Shown here: in pieces, positions 3,037 through 57,605 of the stretch
How positions within the stretch are numbered: the stretch's first letter is position 1
Layout: each line of letters starts with the position of its first letter
Origin: Myxococcales bacterium
Lineage (GTDB): Bacteria; Myxococcota_A; Polyangia; Palsa-1104
Assembly (NCBI GenBank): GCA_003170275.1
Contig: PNAM01000106.1
Coordinates: forward strand, 36,052 to 100,051
Length of the DNA: 64,000 nt
Direction of reading: 5' to 3'
Made by a program: the position numbers and the translations under genes
Notes under the pieces: generated by a model
Told to the model about the DNA's origin: nothing
Seen by the model: the letters and a program-made list of their open reading frames with translations, nothing else
Databases searched by the model: none

Positions 3037-5175
3037 CTAGGGGACGTCGAGGAGAGCGATTTCGGTGGAGGGGTGGGGGAGGCCGGATTCGAGGAGCAGG
3101 CGGTACTTGCCGGGGGGGACGGTCCAGGTGAGGCGCTGGGCGTAGAGGTAGCCCGGACGATTGTCGCCGAGCTGGGCCTCGGTGATTTCGGTGGGGACGG
3201 CGGGCTCGGGTTTTTTCCATTCGCGCGGCGGCGCGGGGATGCGTTGGAGGAGCCAGCGCGTCTTGGGCGGCGCGGTGGGCGCGGCGCGATCGATCTTCAT
3301 CCACACTTCGACGCCGGTGCGGGTCGGGTTGCGCAGCGCCACCAGCTTACCCCACGGCACCTTCACGTCGAGGCGGCGGCTCTGCTTGAGCAGCTCCTCG
3401 AGCCAGGCGTCGGCCACGTCCTGCTTGCCGCGCACCACGTTGTAGTTGTGGTAGCAGGTCACCACGTCCGGCTTGACGAGCGTCGGCCGCGCGACCACCG
3501 GCGCGTCTTTGGGCGGCGGCACGCCCGTCCCCGCCGCCACGCACGCGCTCAGCATCGACGCGGTCTCGACCGCGTGCATCGGCGGATAGCGGTGCGACAC
3601 GAACCAGCGCCACTTCCAGTCCGGCGGGTCGGGCACGAACGTGAATTCGCGAAACGCCGGCCGCTTGTCCCGCTCGTCGAGCATCAGGAAGCGATCCCAC
3701 ACGGTGCCCGGGTGCACCTTGAGCTCGCCGTAGAGCTGCCGCTTCTCCCACAACGGCGGCGCCAGCGCGTCGAGCAGCACCACCGCGCGCGGGTGCAGCT
3801 TGAGCTCGCCCGGCAGGTGCCCGACCGCGCGAATCAGCCGGTTGGAGCGGTCGACGTAGTACCAGAACTCGACGCGGTGGGGCAGGTTGTCGTGAACGAA
3901 GACGAAGTCCTCCGGCCCGGTGCGCTTGGCGACCTCCATCGCGAACAGCTGCTTGGAATAGTCCGCGTTGTAACCGGGCAGCCCGTGCGTGCCCATCATC
4001 ACGCGGCTCTCGAGCAGGTTCGCGTAGGCGTGCCGCGTCTCGACGGCGAAGTAGACCAGCAGCGCGCCGCTCACCGCCGCCAGCGCGATCGGCCGCCCGA
4101 AGCGCGCCAGCAAGCGGCGTAGATCGCCCGCCAGATCGACCACCGCGAGCGTCAGGAACGAGGAGAACCAGAACACGCGATACAGGTGCAGCGACGAGCC
4201 CTCGGCGAACGCGCAGATGTACAGCACGTTGATGGCGAAAAAGGTCAGCACCGCCTGATCGCGTTTGCGCGCGCGCCCGGTGAGCAGCCGGAAGGCGAAC
4301 AGGCCCAGCCACACGAAGCCGAGCGCCACCAGCGGCCAGCCGTACAAGATCTGCAGCCACAGCGAATGGCGCTCGAAGATGAACGCGGCCGACGCGTTGT
4401 GGCGCATCTGAAACGACGAGAAGAAGTCGGCCCACATGCCCTGCTTCCACAGAAAGACGAAGTGGAACGCCATCGTCGAGACGCCCATCGCCGCGGTCGC
4501 GCCGAACCAGATCCACGCCGCGCGCCAGCGGCCGGTCTTCTTGCCCCAGCCGAGCACCATGCAGCCGTGCAGGAACGCCTGCAGGTACGCCTCCCAGAAC
4601 AGCATCCCGCCGACGAATTGCGCCGCCAGCGCGATCAGGAGCCACCGGCGCGACGGCTGCTCCGTGTACGAGAGATACGCGTGGCAGGTGAGCAGCGAGC
4701 ACGCCATCGCCGGGAACATCGCGTCGGTGAGGATGCTGAACGACCACACGATCGGCAGCCCGACCCATACCGCGACCGCGAGCAGCGCCGCCTCGCGCGA
4801 CCACCACCTGCGCACCAGCGCGAACAGCGCCCAGATCAACAACAGGCCGGTCGCCACCGGCAGCGTGGTCGGCGTCCACAGATGATCGCCGAGCAGCAGC
4901 GTCCATGCGCCGAGCACGTGGTGGTAGCCGATCGGGTGGTGGAAGTAATAGTCGTTCCACGGCGGCACGTCGTACCCGGCGTGGGTCGCCGGCGTGACCA
5001 GGTGCTGCCGGAACGTGGTGCGCACACGCATCATGTACTCGGCCTCGTGATGGCCCATGTGGCCCCACAAGACCGGATGCGCGATGCCGAACGACGAGTA
5101 GCCGAGGTACAGGGCCAAGAGCGCGGCCAGCCCCACGCGCACGGGCCACAGTCGCTTTGTCGCCGGCGGCTCCAT
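3037..5175 (-). CDS. Membrane glycosyltransferase, GT39/ArnT-like
   Basis: 712 residues: an N-terminal half of about ten hydrophobic helices followed by a soluble domain of ~300 residues. After the first helix comes the acidic loop HMGHHEAEYMM (near 40-50), in the place where PMT/ArnT-type enzymes carry their catalytic acidic residue. Such enzymes use polyprenyl-phosphate sugars as donors on the outer face of the inner membrane. The family is inferred from topology and this loop. The start used is ATG at 5175; a TTG directly before it is also possible. It begins 17 bases after the FG-GAP gene and ends the minus-strand cluster, meeting the convergent methyltransferase tail to tail with one base between. 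Confidence 0.7.
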   Translation of the reverse strand: MEPPATKRLWPVRVGLAALLALYLGYSSFGIAHPVLWGHMGHHEAEYMMRVRTTFRQHLVTPATHAGYDVPPWNDYYFHHPIGYHHVLGAWTLLLGDHLWTPTTLPVATGLLLIWALFALVRRWWSREAALLAVAVWVGLPIVWSFSILTDAMFPAMACSLLTCHAYLSYTEQPSRRWLLIALAAQFVGGMLFWEAYLQAFLHGCMVLGWGKKTGRWRAAWIWFGATAAMGVSTMAFHFVFLWKQGMWADFFSSFQMRHNASAAFIFERHSLWLQILYGWPLVALGFVWLGLFAFRLLTGRARKRDQAVLTFFAINVLYICAFAEGSSLHLYRVFWFSSFLTLAVVDLAGDLRRLLARFGRPIALAAVSGALLVYFAVETRHAYANLLESRVMMGTHGLPGYNADYSKQLFAMEVAKRTGPEDFVFVHDNLPHRVEFWYYVDRSNRLIRAVGHLPGELKLHPRAVVLLDALAPPLWEKRQLYGELKVHPGTVWDRFLMLDERDKRPAFREFTFVPDPPDWKWRWFVSHRYPPMHAVETASMLSACVAAGTGVPPPKDAPVVARPTLVKPDVVTCYHNYNVVRGKQDVADAWLEELLKQSRRLDVKVPWGKLVALRNPTRTGVEVWMKIDRAAPTAPPKTRWLLQRIPAPPREWKKPEPAVPTEITEAQLGDNRPGYLYAQRLTWTVPPGKYRLLLESGLPHPSTEIALLDVP

Positions 5176-23370: not shown

Positions 23371-24975
23371 TTGACCCTACGCACCAAAGTCTCGCTGGTG
23401 CTCTCCGGCCTGCTGGTCCTGTGCATCGGGGCCACGGGCGCGATCCTGCTCTACGACTCGGCGCAGCACACCCGCCGCGAGCTGCGCTCCAAGCACCAGC
23501 TGCTCGCCGAGAATCGCGCGTTCGCGCTGCATGACAACTTCGACATCCTGGTGCTCGAGCTGACGCGCCTGGCCGAGCTGCCGCAGATCGATCTCGCGGA
23601 CAAGAACCCGCTGCCCGAATCGCAGCTGCTGGCGAGCGCGCACCAGAACTCGATCCTCTACAACACCGCGGTGCTGCTGATCTCCGCCGACGGAACCTGC
23701 GTCGAGGTCACGCCCAACCAGCCGCAGTACAAGTCGCAGCGCTACGGCGATCGCGCGTGGTTCCAGCTCGCCAAGAGCGGCGCCAACGGGCCGTTCTTTC
23801 GCGTCACCGACGAGCCGGTGCTCGGACGCACGCTCAAGATCGTAGCGCCGATCATCCGCCACAAGCAGTTCCAGGGCGCGCTGGTCGGCATGATCGCGCT
23901 CGACGAGGCCAACCTGATCACGCCGGCGCTGCGCGACGATCTGCCGCCGCACACCGAGGCGCTGCTGGTGGACGACACCGGGCGGGTGGTGTTTCCGTCG
24001 GATCGCGTGCGCGCCACGCCGTCGAGCGATTGGGACACGGTGATCAAGAAGGCCGGGCGCGGTGAGACCGGAACGTTCAGCGGGCAGGCCGAAGGCGAGA
24101 AGTCGCTGTTCGCCTATGCGCCGGTCAAGGCGGCGACTGGCTTCTCGGTGGTGTTCCGCTGGCCGTGGTCGGCGCTCGACGGCGAGCTGCGGCGCGAGGC
24201 GTGGGCGGTGGTGGGGATCCTGGTGGTGGGCATCGTGCTGGCCGGGCTGACCGGGCTGTTCCTGGCCGCGCTGTTGACCCGCCGGCTCGACGCGGCGGAG
24301 AAAGCGCTCGTCGAGGCGGAGCGCTTCGCCGCCATGGGCAAGACCTCGGCGGCGATCGCGCACGAGCTGAAGAACTCGCTCAACGGGCTGGGCATGGCCG
24401 TCGATCTGATCATCGAGGATCCGACCAACGCGGCGCGCATCGGCCGGCTGCGGCCGCAGGTGGTGTCGGAGATCACGCGCCTGCGCGACGTGATCGACTC
24501 GTTGCTCTCGTTCTCGCGCACGCCGCGGATCGCCCGCGCGCCGGAAGATCTGACGCTGGTGATCCACCGCGCGGTCGAGCTGCTGGTCGACGTGATCGTC
24601 GATCGCGGCGCCAAGGTCACCGTCGACACGCCGGCCTCGATCGAGCTGTCCTGCGACGGGCACAAGATCCAGGGCGTGGTGATGAACCTGGTCAAGAACG
24701 CGGTCGAGGCCGGCAAGCACGTGCGCATCTCGGCGTCGACGCAGGACGGCGAGGCGGTGGTCGAGGTCGCCGACGACGGCCCCGGGCTCTCCGACGAAGC
24801 GCGCCGCCACCTGTTCGAGCCGTTCTTCACCACCAAGCCTAACGGCACCGGCCTCGGCCTGCCCACCTCGTTGCGCTACGTCCAGGCGCACGGCGGCAAG
24901 CTCGAGGCGTTGACCGCCGCCGATCTGGGCGGCGCGCTGCTGCGCATGCGCCTGCCGAAGGAAGCCCAAGCATGA
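23371..24975 (+). CDS. Membrane sensor histidine kinase with periplasmic Cache-type domain
   Basis: 534 residues from TTG 23371; the ATG in the same frame at 23350 meets a stop after one codon. Helix 1 is at 5-27, then a periplasmic ~220-residue double-Cache-like domain (ILYNTAVLLISADGTCVEVT; YGDRAWFQLAKSG) and helix 2 near 272-295. There is no HAMP. HisKA carries His331 in IAHELKNSL (Ser for the usual Pro); N-box NLVKNAVEA and G-box TGLGLPTS follow. It is the NtrB/ZraS-like half of a two-component pair with the sigma54 regulator 10 bases downstream. It probably senses a periplasmic signal controlling the efflux operon. Confidence 0.93.
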   Translation: MTLRTKVSLVLSGLLVLCIGATGAILLYDSAQHTRRELRSKHQLLAENRAFALHDNFDILVLELTRLAELPQIDLADKNPLPESQLLASAHQNSILYNTAVLLISADGTCVEVTPNQPQYKSQRYGDRAWFQLAKSGANGPFFRVTDEPVLGRTLKIVAPIIRHKQFQGALVGMIALDEANLITPALRDDLPPHTEALLVDDTGRVVFPSDRVRATPSSDWDTVIKKAGRGETGTFSGQAEGEKSLFAYAPVKAATGFSVVFRWPWSALDGELRREAWAVVGILVVGIVLAGLTGLFLAALLTRRLDAAEKALVEAERFAAMGKTSAAIAHELKNSLNGLGMAVDLIIEDPTNAARIGRLRPQVVSEITRLRDVIDSLLSFSRTPRIARAPEDLTLVIHRAVELLVDVIVDRGAKVTVDTPASIELSCDGHKIQGVVMNLVKNAVEAGKHVRISASTQDGEAVVEVADDGPGLSDEARRHLFEPFFTTKPNGTGLGLPTSLRYVQAHGGKLEALTAADLGGALLRMRLPKEAQA

Positions 24976-24985
24976 GCGTGAGCCG

Positions 24986-26365
24986 ATGAAAGCGTCCGTT
25001 CTGGTGATCGACGACGAGAAGACCTTTCGCATCGTCGCCGAGGAGGCGCTCTCGTCGGAGGGCATGGACGTCACGACCGCGGCGTCGGGCGAGGCCGGGC
25101 TGCGCGCGTTCCGCGCCGATCCGTTCGATCTGGTGATCCTCGACAAGAACCTGCCCGACCACGACGGCGGCAAGCTGCTCGAGGTGCTGGTGCGCGAGTC
25201 CAAGGAGCGCGGCACCGACACGCTGGTGGTGATGGCTACCGCGTACGCGGATCTCGCCAGCGCGGTGCAGGCGGTCAAGGTGGGCGCGTTCGATTACCTG
25301 TCCAAGCCGCTGCAGCTTCCCGAGCTGCTGGTCACCGTCAAGAAGGCGCTCGAGGCGCGCCGTCTGCGCACGCAGGTACGCCAGCTCGAGGGACGCGCGC
25401 AGGCCGCGCTCGGCGTGTTCCAGCCCGGCACCTCTGCGGCGATGCGCCAGGTGATCGAGATGGTCGACAAGGTCGCGCAGGCGGTCGACACCACCGTGCT
25501 CATCCAGGGCGAGTCGGGCACTGGCAAGGAGCTGGTCGCCAACCTGATCCATCGACGCACGCCGGGGCGCGCGGAGCAGCCGTTCGTCGAGATCAACTGC
25601 GCGTCGCTGCCGGAGAACCTGCTCGAGTCGGAGCTGTTCGGCTATGAGCGCGGCGCGTTCACCGACGCCAAGGGGCAGAAGCGCGGCCTGTTTGAAGCGG
25701 CTGATCTCGGCACGCTGTTCCTCGACGAGGTGGCCGAGACCTCGCCGGGCACGCAGGCCAAGCTGCTCAAGGTGCTCGAGGACCACACCTTCCGGCGCCT
25801 GGGAGGCGTGCGCGATCTGACGGTCAACGTGCGCGTGGTGGCGGCGACCAACAAGGACCTCGCGGCGGAGGTCAAGCGCGGGGTGTTCCGCCTGGACCTG
25901 TACCACCGCCTCGACGTGTTCCACCTGCGCATGCCGCCGCTCCGCGATCGGCGCGACGACGTGATGCCGCTGGCGCGCCATTTTCTCGCCGCGTTCGCCG
26001 CGCGCATGCGCAAGTCCGCGCGCTCGTTCGCGCCGGAGACCGAGCGCATCCTGTGCGCGTACGACTATCCGGGCAACGTGCGCGAGCTCAAGAACCTGAT
26101 CGAGCGCGCGGTGATCCTCTCCGGCGCCGACGTGATCGATCCCGCGTGCATCGTGCTGTCGGGATCGTCCGCCACCGCCGCGCCGCAGTTCTTCGGCATC
26201 GAGCTCGGCGCCGACGGCAAGCCCCCCTCCCTCGACGCGCTCGAGCGCGCCTATATAGCCCGCCTGCTCGCCTTCACCCAGGGCAACCGCACCCAGGTCG
26301 CCCGCCTCCTCGGCGTCTCCTACCCCACCGTCGCCAAAAAGATCGCCGACTACCACCTCGACTAG
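24986..26365 (+). CDS. NtrC-family sigma54-dependent response regulator
   Basis: 459 residues: receiver (1-120, phospho-acceptor Asp53 in [10 protein letters not shown]), AAA+ domain (~145-385, Walker A GESGTGKE near 175) and a C-terminal Fis-type HTH ([20 protein letters not shown]). The sigma54-contact loop reads GAFTDA instead of GAFTGA. The AAA+ region otherwise looks intact ([47 protein letters not shown]). The last ~45 codons switch to C-ending codons. It lies directly upstream of a sigma54 promoter and the RND efflux operon, which is its most likely target. Confidence 0.95.
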
Positions 26366-26368
26366 CCG

Positions 26369-26410
26369 CTACAAGTTCCTTTCACCCCCCTACAAGAAAC
26401 TTTCACCCCC
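26369..26410 (+). promoter_or_regulatory. Two tandem 21-bp repeats, candidate activator sites
   Basis: CTACAAGTTCCTTTCACCCC plus C at 26369-26389 and CTACAAGAAACTTTCACCCC plus C at 26390-26410 match at 18 of 21 positions and abut exactly. They start three bases after the regulator's stop codon and lie about 120-160 bases upstream of the predicted start of the efflux transcript, the usual distance for sigma54 enhancer sites. The activator-binding role is inference. Confidence 0.5.
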
Positions 26411-26504
26411 GATAACAAGCGGACTTAACTTTTTAACTTGTTTGCCGCGAAACCATTTGGGTTTTCGAGAAAGTTAAATAGTTAAGTCCGCTTGTTATCG
26501 GGGG
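26406..26504. repeat. REPIN-like 99-bp inverted-repeat element (copies A and B of the REP)
   Basis: Two 34-bp arms, 26406-26439 and 26471-26504, are inverted copies with a single mismatch, separated by 31 bases that contain a small imperfect hairpin (CGAAACC/GGTTTTCG). Each arm contains the 30-bp core also found at 39891, 43331 and 44408. The arrangement, two REPs head to head around a short spacer with the GATAAC ends outward, is that of a REPIN. The same end orientation flanks the transposase gene at 43413-44414. It lies between the sigma54 regulator gene and its probable target promoter. Confidence 0.85.
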
Positions 26505-26517
26505 CACGGCGATTGCT
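26502..26517 (+). promoter_or_regulatory. Predicted sigma54 promoter of the RND efflux operon
   Basis: GGGCACGGCGATTGCT fits the -24/-12 consensus TGGCACG-N4-TTGCT with one mismatch (first base). The -24 GG (26503-26504) and the -12 GC (26515-26516) are separated by exactly 10 bases. Transcription would start about 12 bases after GC, near 26528, giving a leader of about 9 bases before ATG 26537. The GG pair is the last two bases of the right arm of the REPIN-like element. A sigma54 activator gene is immediately upstream. Confidence 0.75.
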
Positions 26518-26536
26518 GGGGTGGGGGCGGCCAATC

Positions 26537-29500
26537 ATGTTGGAAGCCCTGATCGATCTTGCCGTGAAGCGCCGGGTGGCGACGCTGGTGTTGTCGGTCG
26601 TGTTCGTGTTGTTTGGGATTCACACGTTTTCGAAGCTCAAGATCGAGGCGTTCCCGGACGTCACCAACGTGCAGGTCATGGTGATCACGCTCTTTCCGGG
26701 CCAGGCGGCCGAGGAGGTCGAGAAGCAGGTCACCATCCCGGTCGAGCGCGCGCTCAACGGCACGCCCAACGTGCTGGTGCAGCGCTCGATCACCTCGTTC
26801 GGCCTGTCGCAGGTGATCGTCACCTTCGAGGACGGCGTGGACATCTACTTCGCGCGCCACCAGGTCGCCGAGCGGCTCACCGAGGCCGAGGTGCCCGAGG
26901 GCATCACGCCCGGGCTCGGCCCCAACGACACTCCCGTCGGGCAAGTCTATCAGTACACGCTCGAGAGCGATCACCACTCGCCGTCGGAGCTGCGCGGCTG
27001 GCAGGACTGGGTGGTCGAGAAGCAGCTCAAGCGTGTGGCCGGCGTCGCGGACGTGGTCTCGTTCGGCGGCTATCAGAAGGAATATCACGTGCTCGCCGAC
27101 CCGTTGCGCCTGCGCAACAACGGGCTGTCGCTCAAGGACCTGATGGAGGCGGTGTCCTCCTCCAACGGCGCCACCTCGGGCGGCTACGTGCAGCACGGCG
27201 AGAGCGAGTTCGTGGTGCGTGGCCGCGGCTATCTGCGCAACAAGAACGACATCGAGAAGATCGTGGTGCGCGTGCAGAACGGTACGCCGGTGCTGGTGCG
27301 CAACGTCGCGACCGTGGTCGAAGGATTCATCCCGCGGCGCGGCGCGGTGGCTCGCAACGAGGCGATCGACTCGATCGAAGGCACCATCCTGCTGCGCCGC
27401 GGCGAGAACCCCAAGGACGTGCTCACGGCGGTGCACGAGGCGGTCGACGAGATCAACAAGGACGTGCTGCCCAAGGGCATGCGCATCGTCCCCTTCTACG
27501 ATCGCACCCGCCTGGTCGACACCACGCTCAAGACCGTCTCGCACAACATGATGGAGGGCGCCGCGCTGGTGGCCGTCGTGCTGTGGCTGTTCTTGCGCGC
27601 GATTTCCGGCTCGATCGCGGTGGCGGTGACCATGCCGCTGGCGCTTTTGACCGCGTTCGTCGGCCTCTATTATGCTGGCGTTCCTGCCAATCTATTGTCC
27701 ATGGGGGCGATCGACTTCGGCATCTTGCTCGACGGCGCGGTGATCCTCGTCGAGAACGCCTACCGCCACCTGGCCGAGGAGCAACCGCCGCCCGAAGAGG
27801 TGCCCAACGTGGTGGCGCGCGCCGCCAAGGAGGTGGTACGCCCGACGCTGTTCTCCATGTCGATCATCGCCGCGGCGATGATGCCGATCTTCACTCTCGA
27901 GCGCGTCGAAGGCCGCATCTTCCGGCCGGTCGCGCTCACCTACGCGTTCGCGCTGTTCGGCGCGCTGCTGTTCACGCTCACGCTGGTCCCGGCCTTCACC
28001 ACCATCCTGCTCAAGCATCGCAAGGTGAAGGAGGCCGAGCCGGCGTTCCTGATCTTCCTGCGGGACCGCTACCTGTCGGCGCTTCGCTGGGCGCTCAAGC
28101 ACCCCGCCTACACTGCGCTGGCGGCGCTGCCGATCCTGGTGCTCGCGCTGGCGATCGTGCCCAAGCTCGGCTCGGAGTTCCTGCCCGAGATGAACGAGGG
28201 CGACATCCACATCACCGTCACCCAGCCGAGCGCGGTGTCGCTCGAGCGCGGCGCGCAGGTGCTGCACGACACGCGCATGGCGCTGCTCAAGTTCCCCGAG
28301 GTCAAGGACGTGCTCACCGAGCAGGGCCACCCCGAGGACGGCACCGACGACGAGGCACCCAACCAGGCCGAGACCTTCGTGATCATGAAGGCCGAGAAGG
28401 ACTGGCACACCGGCCGCAGCAAGGAGCAGATCGTCGAGGAGATGCGCAAGGAGCTCGAGAAGCGGCCGGGCGTCGACTACAACTTCTCGCAGCCGATCAA
28501 GGACCGCGTCGAGGAGTCGATCTCGGGCATCCGCGGGCAGATCGTAGTCAAGATCTACGGCAGCGATCTGACGCTCATGCAGGAGCGGCTCGAGCAGATC
28601 AAGAACATCCTCACCGACGTGCGCGGCTCGCGCGACGTCGACGTCTACCGCGCGGGCTCGGCGGTGCACGTGGTGGCGGACATCGATCGTGACGCCACCG
28701 CGCGCGTCGGCGTCGCAGTGCGCGACGTGGAGGACGTGATCGAGACCGCGTACGGCGGCCGCGTCGCCACCTCGATGTGGGAAGACGAGCGCAAGGTGCC
28801 GGTGCGGATCAAGCTGCCCACCCCGTCGTCGGGCGACACCTTCTCGGTTGGCCGCCTGGAGATCCCCACCGACAAGCTGCGCTTGCCGCTGTCGTCGCTG
28901 GCGCACGTGCACGTCGATCTCGGCCGCACCCAGATCAACCGCGAGCAGGGCGGGCGCTTCCTGGCGCTCAAGTGCAACATCGAGGGGCGCGACATGGGCT
29001 CGTTCGTCGAGGAGGCGCAGCGCCGCGTCAAGAAGGACGTGCACCTGCCCGAGGGCTATTTCCTCACTTGGGGCGGCGAGTTCGAGAACCAGCGGCGCGC
29101 GATGAAGCGGCTGATGGTGATCGTGCCGATCTCGGTCTTGGTGATCTTCTTCCTCTTGTTCATGACCTTCCGCGCCACGCTTCCGGCGGTGGTGGTGCTG
29201 CTCGACGTGCCGTTCGCCACCGTCGGCGGCGTGTTCGCGCTCTATCTCACGCACACGGTGTTGTCGGTGTCGGCGGCGGTCGGCTTCATCACGTTGTTCG
29301 GCGTGGCGGTGATGGACGGAGTGCTCTTGGTGACCTACATCATTCAGGCGCGACAGAAACACGCGGAGACCGGCGGCGACGACGCGCAGGACGCGATCCT
29401 GCGGGCGGTCTCGCAGCGGCTCCGTCCGGTGCTCATGACCGCCATGCTGGCCTCGCTCGGCCTTCTGCCGGCGGCCCTGTCGCACGCGATCGGCTCCGAC

Positions 29501-29671
29501 ACGCAGCGGCCGTTCGCCATCGTCATCATCGGCGGGCTGATGTCCTCGACGCTCTTGACGCTGCTGCTCTTGCCGACGCTGTACGAGCTGACCGATCGGC
29601 TGTTCGGTGAAGGCCGCAAGCGTCGCCGCGACCTCAAGACCACCGCCCGGTTGGGCGAGGAGGAATCGTGA
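26537..29671 (+). CDS. RND heavy-metal efflux pump, CzcA/CusA family
   Basis: 1044 residues, the usual length of the HME-RND family: proton-driven inner-membrane transporter exporting metal ions through a tripartite CBA complex. The N terminus MLEALIDLAVKRRVATLVL is the first helix. The transmembrane block has GAIDFGILLDGAVILVENAY near 400-420, with the acidic relay residue in DGAVI. LGSEFLPEMNEGDIH marks the second periplasmic part. ATG 26537 was chosen over upstream in-frame starts because those translate REPIN sequence. The GTGA overlap with the next gene indicates coupling. The specific metal cannot be told from sequence by eye. Confidence 0.95.
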   Translation: MLEALIDLAVKRRVATLVLSVVFVLFGIHTFSKLKIEAFPDVTNVQVMVITLFPGQAAEEVEKQVTIPVERALNGTPNVLVQRSITSFGLSQVIVTFEDGVDIYFARHQVAERLTEAEVPEGITPGLGPNDTPVGQVYQYTLESDHHSPSELRGWQDWVVEKQLKRVAGVADVVSFGGYQKEYHVLADPLRLRNNGLSLKDLMEAVSSSNGATSGGYVQHGESEFVVRGRGYLRNKNDIEKIVVRVQNGTPVLVRNVATVVEGFIPRRGAVARNEAIDSIEGTILLRRGENPKDVLTAVHEAVDEINKDVLPKGMRIVPFYDRTRLVDTTLKTVSHNMMEGAALVAVVLWLFLRAISGSIAVAVTMPLALLTAFVGLYYAGVPANLLSMGAIDFGILLDGAVILVENAYRHLAEEQPPPEEVPNVVARAAKEVVRPTLFSMSIIAAAMMPIFTLERVEGRIFRPVALTYAFALFGALLFTLTLVPAFTTILLKHRKVKEAEPAFLIFLRDRYLSALRWALKHPAYTALAALPILVLALAIVPKLGSEFLPEMNEGDIHITVTQPSAVSLERGAQVLHDTRMALLKFPEVKDVLTEQGHPEDGTDDEAPNQAETFVIMKAEKDWHTGRSKEQIVEEMRKELEKRPGVDYNFSQPIKDRVEESISGIRGQIVVKIYGSDLTLMQERLEQIKNILTDVRGSRDVDVYRAGSAVHVVADIDRDATARVGVAVRDVEDVIETAYGGRVATSMWEDERKVPVRIKLPTPSSGDTFSVGRLEIPTDKLRLPLSSLAHVHVDLGRTQINREQGGRFLALKCNIEGRDMGSFVEEAQRRVKKDVHLPEGYFLTWGGEFENQRRAMKRLMVIVPISVLVIFFLLFMTFRATLPAVVVLLDVPFATVGGVFALYLTHTVLSVSAAVGFITLFGVAVMDGVLLVTYIIQARQKHAETGGDDAQDAILRAVSQRLRPVLMTAMLASLGLLPAALSHAIGSDTQRPFAIVIIGGLMSSTLLTLLLLPTLYELTDRLFGEGRKRRRDLKTTARLGEEES

Positions 29672-30972
29672 GCCGCGTCGTGTCGATGACGATCGCGCTG
29701 TGCGTCGCGCGCGTCGCACTGGCCCAGAACGGGTCGCCGCTGCTCTCGATGGATCAGGCGGTGGCGATCGCGCTCACCCGCAACCACGACGCGATCGCCG
29801 CGCGGCTCGACATCGACACCGCGCAGCTCGATCGCGTGCAGGCGGGGCTCTATCCCAACCCGATCTTCAGCTACACGCTCGGCAACGTGGTGCTCGGCCC
29901 GGCGAACCCGCAGGGCACTCCGCCCACGGTGATCGATCCGGGGGCGTTCGGTCAGACGGTGCACTCGCTCGGCCTCAGCGAGGTGATCGACGTGTGGGCC
30001 AAGCGCAACGCGCGCCTGCGCGCAGCCGATCGCTCGATCGAGCACAAGAGGCTCCAGGTGCAGGACGCGCTGCGCGAGATCGTCTTTGCGGTGCGCTCCG
30101 CCTTTGCCGACGTGCTGCGCGAGCAGTCCGAGTACTCGCTCGCCAAGGAGACGCGCGCCCGCTACGACGAGACGGTGCGGCTGTCGCGCGCGCGCTTTGC
30201 CGCCGGGGACATCTCCGAGGCCGAGCTGAAGAAGGTCGAGCTCGAGGGGCTGCGCTATCAGAACGGCGAGATCGACGCCGAGATGGAGCTCGATCTGGCG
30301 CGCCAGAAGCTGGCCGCGTTGCTCAGCCTGGGCGAAGCCGCGCAGCTGCCCATGCTCGAGGCCGAGGCGCTGCCCGATGCCAAGCGCACCCCGTACGTGG
30401 TCGCGAAGCTGATCGATCAGGCGCTCGCCGATCGGCCCGACGTGCAAGCCGCGCGCGTCGCCAAGCTGCTCAGCGAATCGACGCTCGCGCAAGCGCGCCG
30501 CGAGGCGTTCCCCGACATCTCGCTCGGGCTCACCTTCACGCACTCGGAGTTCACCGTCTCGGGCGACAACCCCAACTCGCTGGCGCTCTCGCTGTCGCTG
30601 CCGATCCCCACCTTCGATCGCAACCAGGCGAACATCGGACGCGCGCAGGTCGACATCCGGCGCGCCGAGAACGACGCCAAGCGCCTGGTGATCGTCGTGC
30701 AGCACGAGGTCGCCGACGCCGCGCGCAAGGCGCTGCGCTCGGACCGGCTGCTCGACGCGTTCGAGGGCGGCATGCTCGACCGCGCCGACAGCTCGCTGCG
30801 CGTGGCGGAGAAGTCCTACAAGGCGGGTGCGGTGTCGCTGCTCGAGCTGCTCGAGGCGCAGCGCACCTATCTCGAAACGCGCGCGCAATACCTGCACGCG
30901 CTGCACGACTACCGGCAGGCGGTGATCGACGTGCTACACGCCGTCGGCGCCGTTGATAGAGGTGCGAAGTGA
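29668..30972 (+). CDS. TolC-family outer-membrane efflux protein (CzcC-like)
   Basis: 434 residues from GTG 29668, which overlaps the pump gene's stop. It has a signal peptide (VVSMTIALCVARVALA) and two repeats of the TolC barrel and coiled-coil fold. Visible landmarks are LSMDQAVAIALTRNHDAIAA, LYPNPIFSYTLG, a long helical pair, and SYKAGAVSLLELLEAQRTYL near the C terminus, the standard OEP signature. It forms the outer-membrane exit duct of the tripartite pump. The order pump, duct, adaptor differs from the more common czcCBA order. Confidence 0.93.
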   Translation: MSRVVSMTIALCVARVALAQNGSPLLSMDQAVAIALTRNHDAIAARLDIDTAQLDRVQAGLYPNPIFSYTLGNVVLGPANPQGTPPTVIDPGAFGQTVHSLGLSEVIDVWAKRNARLRAADRSIEHKRLQVQDALREIVFAVRSAFADVLREQSEYSLAKETRARYDETVRLSRARFAAGDISEAELKKVELEGLRYQNGEIDAEMELDLARQKLAALLSLGEAAQLPMLEAEALPDAKRTPYVVAKLIDQALADRPDVQAARVAKLLSESTLAQARREAFPDISLGLTFTHSEFTVSGDNPNSLALSLSLPIPTFDRNQANIGRAQVDIRRAENDAKRLVIVVQHEVADAARKALRSDRLLDAFEGGMLDRADSSLRVAEKSYKAGAVSLLELLEAQRTYLETRAQYLHALHDYRQAVIDVLHAVGAVDRGAK

Positions 30973-30983
30973 GGAGCGAAGTG

Positions 30984-32096
30984 ATGCGTGTGTGGTGGTG
31001 TGCGATCCTGATCATGGGCGGCTGCTCGTCGGGCGGCGGTACCGAAGCGCCGGGCGGTGGCGGCGGCGAGCACGCCAAGGACTTCATCAAGATCGAGCCG
31101 GGCAGCCCGCACCTCGACTTCATCAAGATCGAGCCGGTGACGGAGAGCGATGCGGCCACCGCGGTGTCGTTGACCGGCAAGGTCACCTTCGACGAGGATC
31201 ACACGCAGCGCGTGGCCTCGCCGATCGACGGGCGCGTGATCGCGCTGCTGGTGAAGCCGGGCGACAAGGTCCGGGCGGGCCAGGCGCTCGTCGAGCTCTC
31301 CTCGCCCAACGTCGGACAGCTGCAGGCCGACGCGCAGAAGGCGCTACAGGACCTGAGCGTGCAGACCAAGGCGGTCGAGCGCGTGCACAAGCTGCAGGCG
31401 GACGGCGCGATCTCGGAGAAGGAGGTCGCGCAGGCCGAGGCCGACTTCAAGAAGGCGAAGAGCGACGTCGCGCGTACCACCGCGCAGCTCAAGTCGCTCG
31501 GCGTCTCCGCCTCCGATCCGGCGGTGAGCGTTGCGCTGCGCGCGCAGATCAACGGCGTGCTGGTGGAGCGCAACGTGCTGGTCGGTCAGGAGGTGCGCGC
31601 CGATGCCGCGATGCCGCTGATGACCATCACTAGCCTGGAGACGGTGTGGGTGATAGCGGACGCGTATGAGCAGGACCTGAGCCTGGTGCAGGACGGCGCC
31701 GGCGTGAGCCTGCACGTGCCCGCCTATCCGGGCGAGGCGTTCCCCGGCGTGGTGTCGCACATCGGCGACGTGGTCGACAAGGACACGCGCACGGTGAAGA
31801 TCCGCTGCTCGGCGCCCAACAAAGATCACCGCCTCAAGCCCGAGATGTTCGCCAAGGTCGATCTGCAGAACAAGACCGGCAAGAAGGTGGTGGTGATCCC
31901 GTCCAAGGCCGTGATCAACGACGGCGAGCTCACCAAGGTGATCGTCGCCACCGAAGGCAACGTGTTCCGCGGCCGCAAGATCGACGTCGGCCCCGAGGTC
32001 GACGGCAAGATCCGCGTCCTGAGCGGCCTCCAGGCCGGCGAAAAAATCGTCACCGACGGCGCCATCTTCCTAAAACGCGAAATCGAAACGAATTAG
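30984..32096 (+). CDS. RND periplasmic adaptor lipoprotein (CzcB/HlyD family)
   Basis: 370 residues from ATG 30984, chosen because GAGGAG lies 7 bases upstream and it gives MRVWWCAILIMGGC, a lipoprotein signal. After a Gly-rich linker come the barrel-sandwich/lipoyl half (VASPIDGRVIALLVKPGDKV), a coiled-coil hairpin (LQADAQKALQDLSV to VARTTAQLKSL), and the beta-barrel and membrane-proximal domains. It joins pump and outer-membrane duct. A short duplicated phrase, DFIKIEPG and DFIKIEPV, occurs just after the linker. The 3' end shows a clear C-ending codon switch. Confidence 0.92.
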   Translation: MRVWWCAILIMGGCSSGGGTEAPGGGGGEHAKDFIKIEPGSPHLDFIKIEPVTESDAATAVSLTGKVTFDEDHTQRVASPIDGRVIALLVKPGDKVRAGQALVELSSPNVGQLQADAQKALQDLSVQTKAVERVHKLQADGAISEKEVAQAEADFKKAKSDVARTTAQLKSLGVSASDPAVSVALRAQINGVLVERNVLVGQEVRADAAMPLMTITSLETVWVIADAYEQDLSLVQDGAGVSLHVPAYPGEAFPGVVSHIGDVVDKDTRTVKIRCSAPNKDHRLKPEMFAKVDLQNKTGKKVVVIPSKAVINDGELTKVIVATEGNVFRGRKIDVGPEVDGKIRVLSGLQAGEKIVTDGAIFLKREIETN

Positions 32097-57556: not shown

Positions 57557-57605
57557 GGCTTCCCGGTTGGCACGGCTCCTGCTGTGACCTCACTCGAGGC
57601 CCCGG

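Follow-up and report, generated by a model that had tools for sequence, protein, structure and literature searches.

Gene organization of the efflux locus

The analysed stretch of 64,000 nucleotides, referred to as the window, has a G+C content of 68% and is part of contig C80 of an 8.17-Mb draft genome (G000), whose contamination was estimated at 6%. It contains a two-component regulatory gene pair followed by a three-gene efflux operon. From the regulator gene to the permease gene, tandem 21-bp repeats, a hairpin-capable repeat, a sigma54 motif and the start codon at 26537 follow one another in this order. The features of the locus are as follows.

23371-24975, plus strand: sensor histidine kinase gene (dCache, HisKA and HATPase_c domains)
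24986-26365, plus strand: NtrC-type response regulator gene (receiver, sigma54-activating AAA+ domain with an ERGAFTDA loop, Fis-type HTH)
26369-26383, minus strand: distal candidate enhancer dyad, GAAAGGAACTTGTAG
26390-26404, minus strand: proximal candidate enhancer dyad, GAAAGTTTCTTGTAG, 21 bp from the distal dyad
26411-26439, plus strand: left arm of the inserted repeat, unit GATAACAAGCGGACTTAACTTTTTAACTT
26440-26470, no strand: spacer/loop of the inserted repeat
26471-26499, minus strand: right arm of the inserted repeat
26502-26517, plus strand: putative sigma54 -24/-12 promoter, GGGCACG-GCGA-TTGCT
26528, plus strand: predicted transcription start, placed 12 bases after the GC
26537-29671, plus strand: RND permease gene, CusA/CzcA heavy-metal efflux family
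29668-30972, plus strand: outer-membrane efflux protein gene, OEP/TolC type
30969-32096, plus strand: periplasmic adaptor gene, CusB/CzcB-type

The RND permease scored 978.8 bits against the curated TIGR00914 cut-off of 701.45, which places it in the CusA/CzcA family. Both the sigma54-activator gene directly upstream (24986-26365) and the RND target (26537-29671) named in an earlier note on this DNA are present. An RpoN gene was found in the G000 genome, and together with the sigma54-interaction domain of the activator it assigns the locus to the sigma54/NtrC-type systems. The domain layout resembles that of the Escherichia coli sigma54 two-component systems ZraSR and AtoSC. The best NCBIfam matches of the regulator include AtoC (397 bits, cut-off 714) and ZraR (327 bits, cut-off 760); both scores are far below the curated equivalog cut-offs, and the regulator is therefore neither AtoC nor ZraR. 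The histidine kinase is missing approximately 69 residues at the HAMP/linker position (around residue 303-308) that are present in the orthologs compared; the loss is in-frame and could alter signalling. An Rfam search of the window gave no match.

The predicted sigma54 promoter and the candidate enhancer dyads

The promoter motif consists of GGGCACG (26502-26508), four unspecified bases (26509-26512) and TTGCT (26513-26517), with 10 bases between the -24 GG (26503-26504) and the -12 GC (26515-26516). The exact 10-base spacing described in the earlier note was confirmed, and 11 of 12 positions match the consensus TGGCACG-N4-TTGCW, as expected of a sigma54 promoter. Only three sites on both strands of the 64 kb score 11/12 with the invariant GG and GC, and none scores 12/12. 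When upstream sequences were randomised with a first-order Markov model, a match of at least 11 within 60 bp of the start appeared in 0-2 of 2000, or roughly 1 in 2000. The leader predicted from the start at 26528 is 9 nt long at the RND gene, and 7 nt long in a related locus (L138, described below), so that translation would be nearly leaderless. This short predicted leader is the main oddity counting against the promoter. A further sigma54-like site, TGGCACGGCTCCTGCT (11/12), is located at 57568-57583 of the window, directly ahead of a possible start codon.

The tandem repeats (26366-26386 and 26387-26407) contain, when read on the minus strand, GAAAGTTTCTTGTAG and GAAAGGAACTTGTAG, two imperfect dyads of the form GAAAG-N3-CTTKT. 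Their centres at -130 and -151 relative to the predicted start are within looping distance, and such a pair is kept in two other lineages. The candidate enhancer that had been noted upstream of the hairpin element is supported by these dyads, at approximately 26369-26404, and by their conservation in two relatives. The exact 15-base dyad occurs only twice in the whole 8.17-Mb genome, both times at this enhancer, and the frequency of one-mismatch sites equals that in a reversed control. Over ten genomes, the exact double-dyad pattern was found only at this enhancer and upstream of the RND gene of genome G059.

Conservation in genomes without the repeat

The comparison of the intergenic region with relatives lacking the repeat, proposed in the earlier note for close relatives, was carried out with genomes from outside the genus, and two of them, G031 and G059, keep both the promoter and the enhancer. 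G031 (locus L082), which belongs to another family, has the same order of kinase, regulator, permease, channel and adaptor genes with an extra gene between the regulator and the permease, and carries GGGCACGTGCCTTGCTGG directly ahead of the RND permease. In G059 (L113, and the near-identical contig L138; these are practically the same sequence and were counted as one lineage), there is no intervening gene, as is also the case in the window, and the permease has CGGCACGCGGTTTGCTGG ahead of it. Both genomes thus have GGCACG-N4-TTGCTGG just upstream of the RND start. The dyads are GAAAGATTCTTGT and GGAAGAAAGTTGT in L082, and GAAAGAATCTTTA and GAAAGAAACTTTC in L138/L113; within each pair they are 23 bp apart and oriented opposite to the window pair, which is 21 bp apart. 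Equally good dyad pairs were found in none of 400 randomised sequences for each relative, and since the motif came from the window, L082 and L138 provide independent tests of it. The recognition region of the regulator is nearly identical among the orthologs, as would be expected if the operator is conserved.

Genome G015 (L108), from which the repeat is absent, has TGGCACTGCGCTTGCTAG, i.e. TGGCAC-N5-TTGCTAG, before its RND gene; this gene is 75% identical and its promoter is good, and the dyad pair is absent there, which counts against the explanation preferred below. Five RND orthologs with 77-79% identity (L114-L118) have neither the enhancer upstream nor a good promoter motif near the start, and this joint absence counts in its favour. 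No dyads reaching at least 16/20 were found at regulator orthologs lacking an adjacent RND gene (L139-L141 and L151) or near other RND homologs. In the window genome, an RND paralog with 81% identity (L110, G000:C58:159855-162548) has a weaker sigma54-like sequence, GGGAATGACGCTTGCA (9/12), 28 bp before its start, and the enhancer dyads are absent from it.

By this phylogenetic footprint the predicted promoter is real, and the adjacent sigma54 activator very likely drives it. The assignment of a sigma54 promoter to the efflux operon in the earlier note is thereby supported, as relatives without the repeat keep the promoter and the enhancer.

The repeat family

By complementarity alone, the arms of the inverted repeat extend over 26406-26439 and 26471-26504 (34 nt, 97% complementary). 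The RNA fold of the hairpin has a z-score of -11.2, and the G+C content of the repeat is 37% compared with 68% in the window. A 21-base core, AGCGGACTTAACTTTTTAACT, is present in 46 copies in the genome, 45 of which are exact; allowing 1 to 3 mismatches added a single copy, the right arm at the efflux operon (26471-26499). Alignment of the copies defined the unit as GATAAC[A/G]AGCGGACTTAACTTTTTAACTT, and the letters beyond GATA are not conserved. There are seven intact inverted pairs, all in the same head-to-head order. One full pair (G000:C110:10555-10653; L024 1056-1154) lies in the gap that separates rpoN from a CTP-synthase-like gene, 134 bp ahead of the start codon of rpoN. The repeat was not found in 57 relatives; of 317 further genomes in the class, 316 lack its core, and the remaining one has a single site with two mismatches. 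No copy of the core was detected in IMG/VR.

Convergent genes clearly flank approximately 17 copies and tandem genes 7, and no copy is clearly flanked by divergent genes, according to a tally with rough thresholds based on codon statistics over 240 bp on each side of a copy. Many copies supply the stop codon of a neighbouring gene. This mostly convergent, gene-end location, the high stability of the 34-bp hairpin and the unusual 9-nt leader would fit an explanation in which the sigma54 motif has arisen by chance, transcripts of the RND operon come from read-through of the kinase and regulator genes or from another promoter, and the repeat is a terminator or mRNA-end hairpin. The occurrence of the promoter and the enhancer at matching places in two independent lineages, together with the regulator, makes such an explanation very unlikely.

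The earlier note had called the element REPIN-like, and we retain the term in this qualified form. The dispersed inverted pairs capable of forming hairpins (46 units including the seven pairs) agree with the label, but other defining properties of REPINs are missing. Judged by position, no Y1_Tnp (RAYT) gene is near any copy: the genome has 11 Y1_Tnp genes, the nearest of them approximately 11 kb from a copy, and none was present in the eight repeat loci scanned. The single unit of 29 nt is not palindromic: neither the unit itself nor one copy taken with its flanks folds better than shuffled sequences, and a somewhat better fold was obtained for a copy extended upstream by TCCGC (z = -2.25). 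Singlets have not decayed, since 45 of the 46 cores, including those of the singlets, are identical and the lone variant belongs to a pair. Hence the family resembles REPINs (PMC3116915) in its dispersed and extragenic distribution, inverted pairs, variable spacer and hairpin folding, and differs from them in lacking a RAYT near the copies, in its non-palindromic unit and in singlets that outnumber the pairs and are intact. It also resembles the GTAG/CGTC-tagged REPs (PMC3733652) in its location at gene ends, mainly convergent or tandem, and in supplying the stop codons of neighbours. Unlike those elements, the unit has no GTAG or CGTC tag and ends in GATAAC. In the literature available to the search, no paper on REPINs together with sigma54 was found.

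Relation of the repeat to the promoter

The earlier note had taken the GG of the promoter as the last GG of the repeat arm, and had proposed that the element may have created the promoter. The first point is not borne out: the family unit ends at 26499, and the GG is at 26503-26504. The outer CCCCC and GGGGG, which extend the arms to 26406 and 26504, are not family sequence, and the promoter GG is accordingly not the end of the element. The CCCCC comes from the enhancer repeat, as each of the 21-bp repeats leads into TTTCACCCCC; the GGGGG belongs to the promoter region.

Creation of the promoter by a mobile repeat that brought or completed the -24 GG is nevertheless suggested by several features. 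The repeat end and the promoter start are 2 bp apart, and the complementarity of the arms reaches through the GGGGG. A second copy, a singlet at G000:C17:83091-83131 (L019 310-338; L165 ~4090-4140), lies between the end of another sigma54-activator gene, of the FHA type, and a small gene. On its outer side, 3 bp separate this copy from TGGCACGGGACGTGCT, and a start codon follows 13 nt after the GC of that site. When the outer flanks of both loci were aligned, only 11 of 5000 shuffles did as well. On the other hand, essentially the same promoter is present in G031, G059 and G015, all without the repeat, and this indicates that the promoter is older than the repeat. The outer flank letters are not conserved over the 46 copies, and such a site stands beside only two of them. 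The alignment of the flanks is due mostly to the sigma54 consensus itself. We regard an origin of the promoter from the repeat as highly improbable, and this part of the earlier proposal is not supported.

At no fewer than two places in the genome, a sigma54-activator gene is followed first by a repeat unit, then by a sigma54-type site at a distance of 2-3 bp, and finally by the start of a gene. From the background density, the number of sigma54-like neighbours expected by chance within 3-4 bp is estimated at approximately 0.004 over 46 copies. At C17, the activator has an 81% identical counterpart in genome G002, where the downstream gene and the intergenic region are replaced. Were it not for the C17 arrangement, no particular association of the repeat with sigma54 promoters would need to be considered. 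A general tendency of the family to settle in sigma54 control regions and to become a working part of them, serving as a load-bearing loop spacer at the efflux operon, seems quite unlikely on the sequence evidence.

Spacing between the enhancer and the promoter

The hairpin element fills the space between the enhancer and the promoter, as the earlier note had described, since 89 of the approximately 97 bp are the repeat (family unit 26411-26499). Relative to the predicted start, the centres of the proximal and distal dyads have the positions -130 and -151 in the window, -74 and -97 in L082, and -94 and -117 in L138. These spacings are within or near the range of 80-150 bp upstream published for activator sites (PMC7910581); another published range is 100-150 (PMC7057263). 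The proximal dyad centre and the -24 GG are separated by 105 bp in the window, compared with 49 bp (L082) and 69 bp (L138). The repeat accounts for 89 of the 105 bp and only 16 bp remain, which argues against a mere addition of the repeat to an otherwise normal spacer. Judging from the geometry, the native spacer may have been lost or may formerly have been very short, and the repeat would now provide the looping distance.

A function of the repeat beyond that of a spacer was also considered, namely that it has been co-opted into the switch through the regulator, a DNA-bending protein or melting of the AT-rich arms. Its low G+C content (37% within the 68% of the window), its filling of nearly the entire space between the enhancer and the promoter and the presence of ACAAGCGGACTTA in the left arm (26415-26427), with a 7/10 dyad match 23 bp from the proximal site, are consistent with such a role. 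However, a 7/10 match is easily reached by chance, and the likeness of ACAAGCGGACTTA to the dyads is probably fortuitous; moreover, the same arm occurs at 46 places without dyads. Matches to the IHF consensus have two mismatches, lie mostly within the repeat arms and were not credited. We consider co-option unlikely; it would add to the preferred explanation given below and not exclude it.

Proposed mechanism and comparison with known systems

The sequence elements, their conservation, the absence of the repeat elsewhere and the geometry are best explained by a conserved sigma54 switch of a histidine kinase and a response regulator for the efflux operon, with the repeat placed later between the enhancer and the promoter. 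We assign this explanation a probability of roughly 0.8. The kinase and the NtrC-type regulator (23371-26365) would switch on the adjacent CusA/CzcA-type operon (26537-32096), presumably in response to a metal signal. The regulator is predicted to bind the two tandem imperfect dyads (GAAAG-N3-CTTGT, 26369-26404), to oligomerise there and to contact the sigma54 RNA polymerase at the promoter (26502-26517) through a DNA loop. The switch predates the repeat. The genome-specific REPIN-like inverted repeat (26411-26499) would have come later without creating either part, and may have replaced the native spacer or entered where little spacer remained. Nearly all of the DNA that separates the enhancer from the promoter is now repeat, and the distance of the enhancer from the predicted start exceeds that in the relatives by approximately 35-55 bp, still in a working range; this change of spacing may tune the promoter.

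Sigma54 two-component control of copper-tolerance genes is known from CorSR of Myxococcus xanthus (PMC3707914). The present locus resembles CorSR in its histidine kinase and receiver-AAA+-HTH_8 regulator, its metal-handling target operon and its putative sigma54 promoter of the TGGCACG-N4-TTGCW type. In contrast to CorSR, the target in the window is a CusA/CzcA-type RND operon adjoining the regulator, and a repeat lies inside the control region. As a switch, the locus is of a familiar and ordinary type; what varies is the spacer, which consists almost entirely of the repeat.

The repeats of this genome form a very uniform family without a known mobiliser. The two dyads, unique in 8.17 Mb, would constitute a single-target operator for an uncharacterised metal-efflux regulator. 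The locus offers a natural enhancer-promoter pair with a repeat as its spacer, and the relatives keep a shorter spacer of ordinary sequence. Without the repeat, the proximal dyad centre would be only approximately 16 bp from the -24 element. The locus lets the importance of the length, bending and sequence of the spacer for sigma54 looping be asked.
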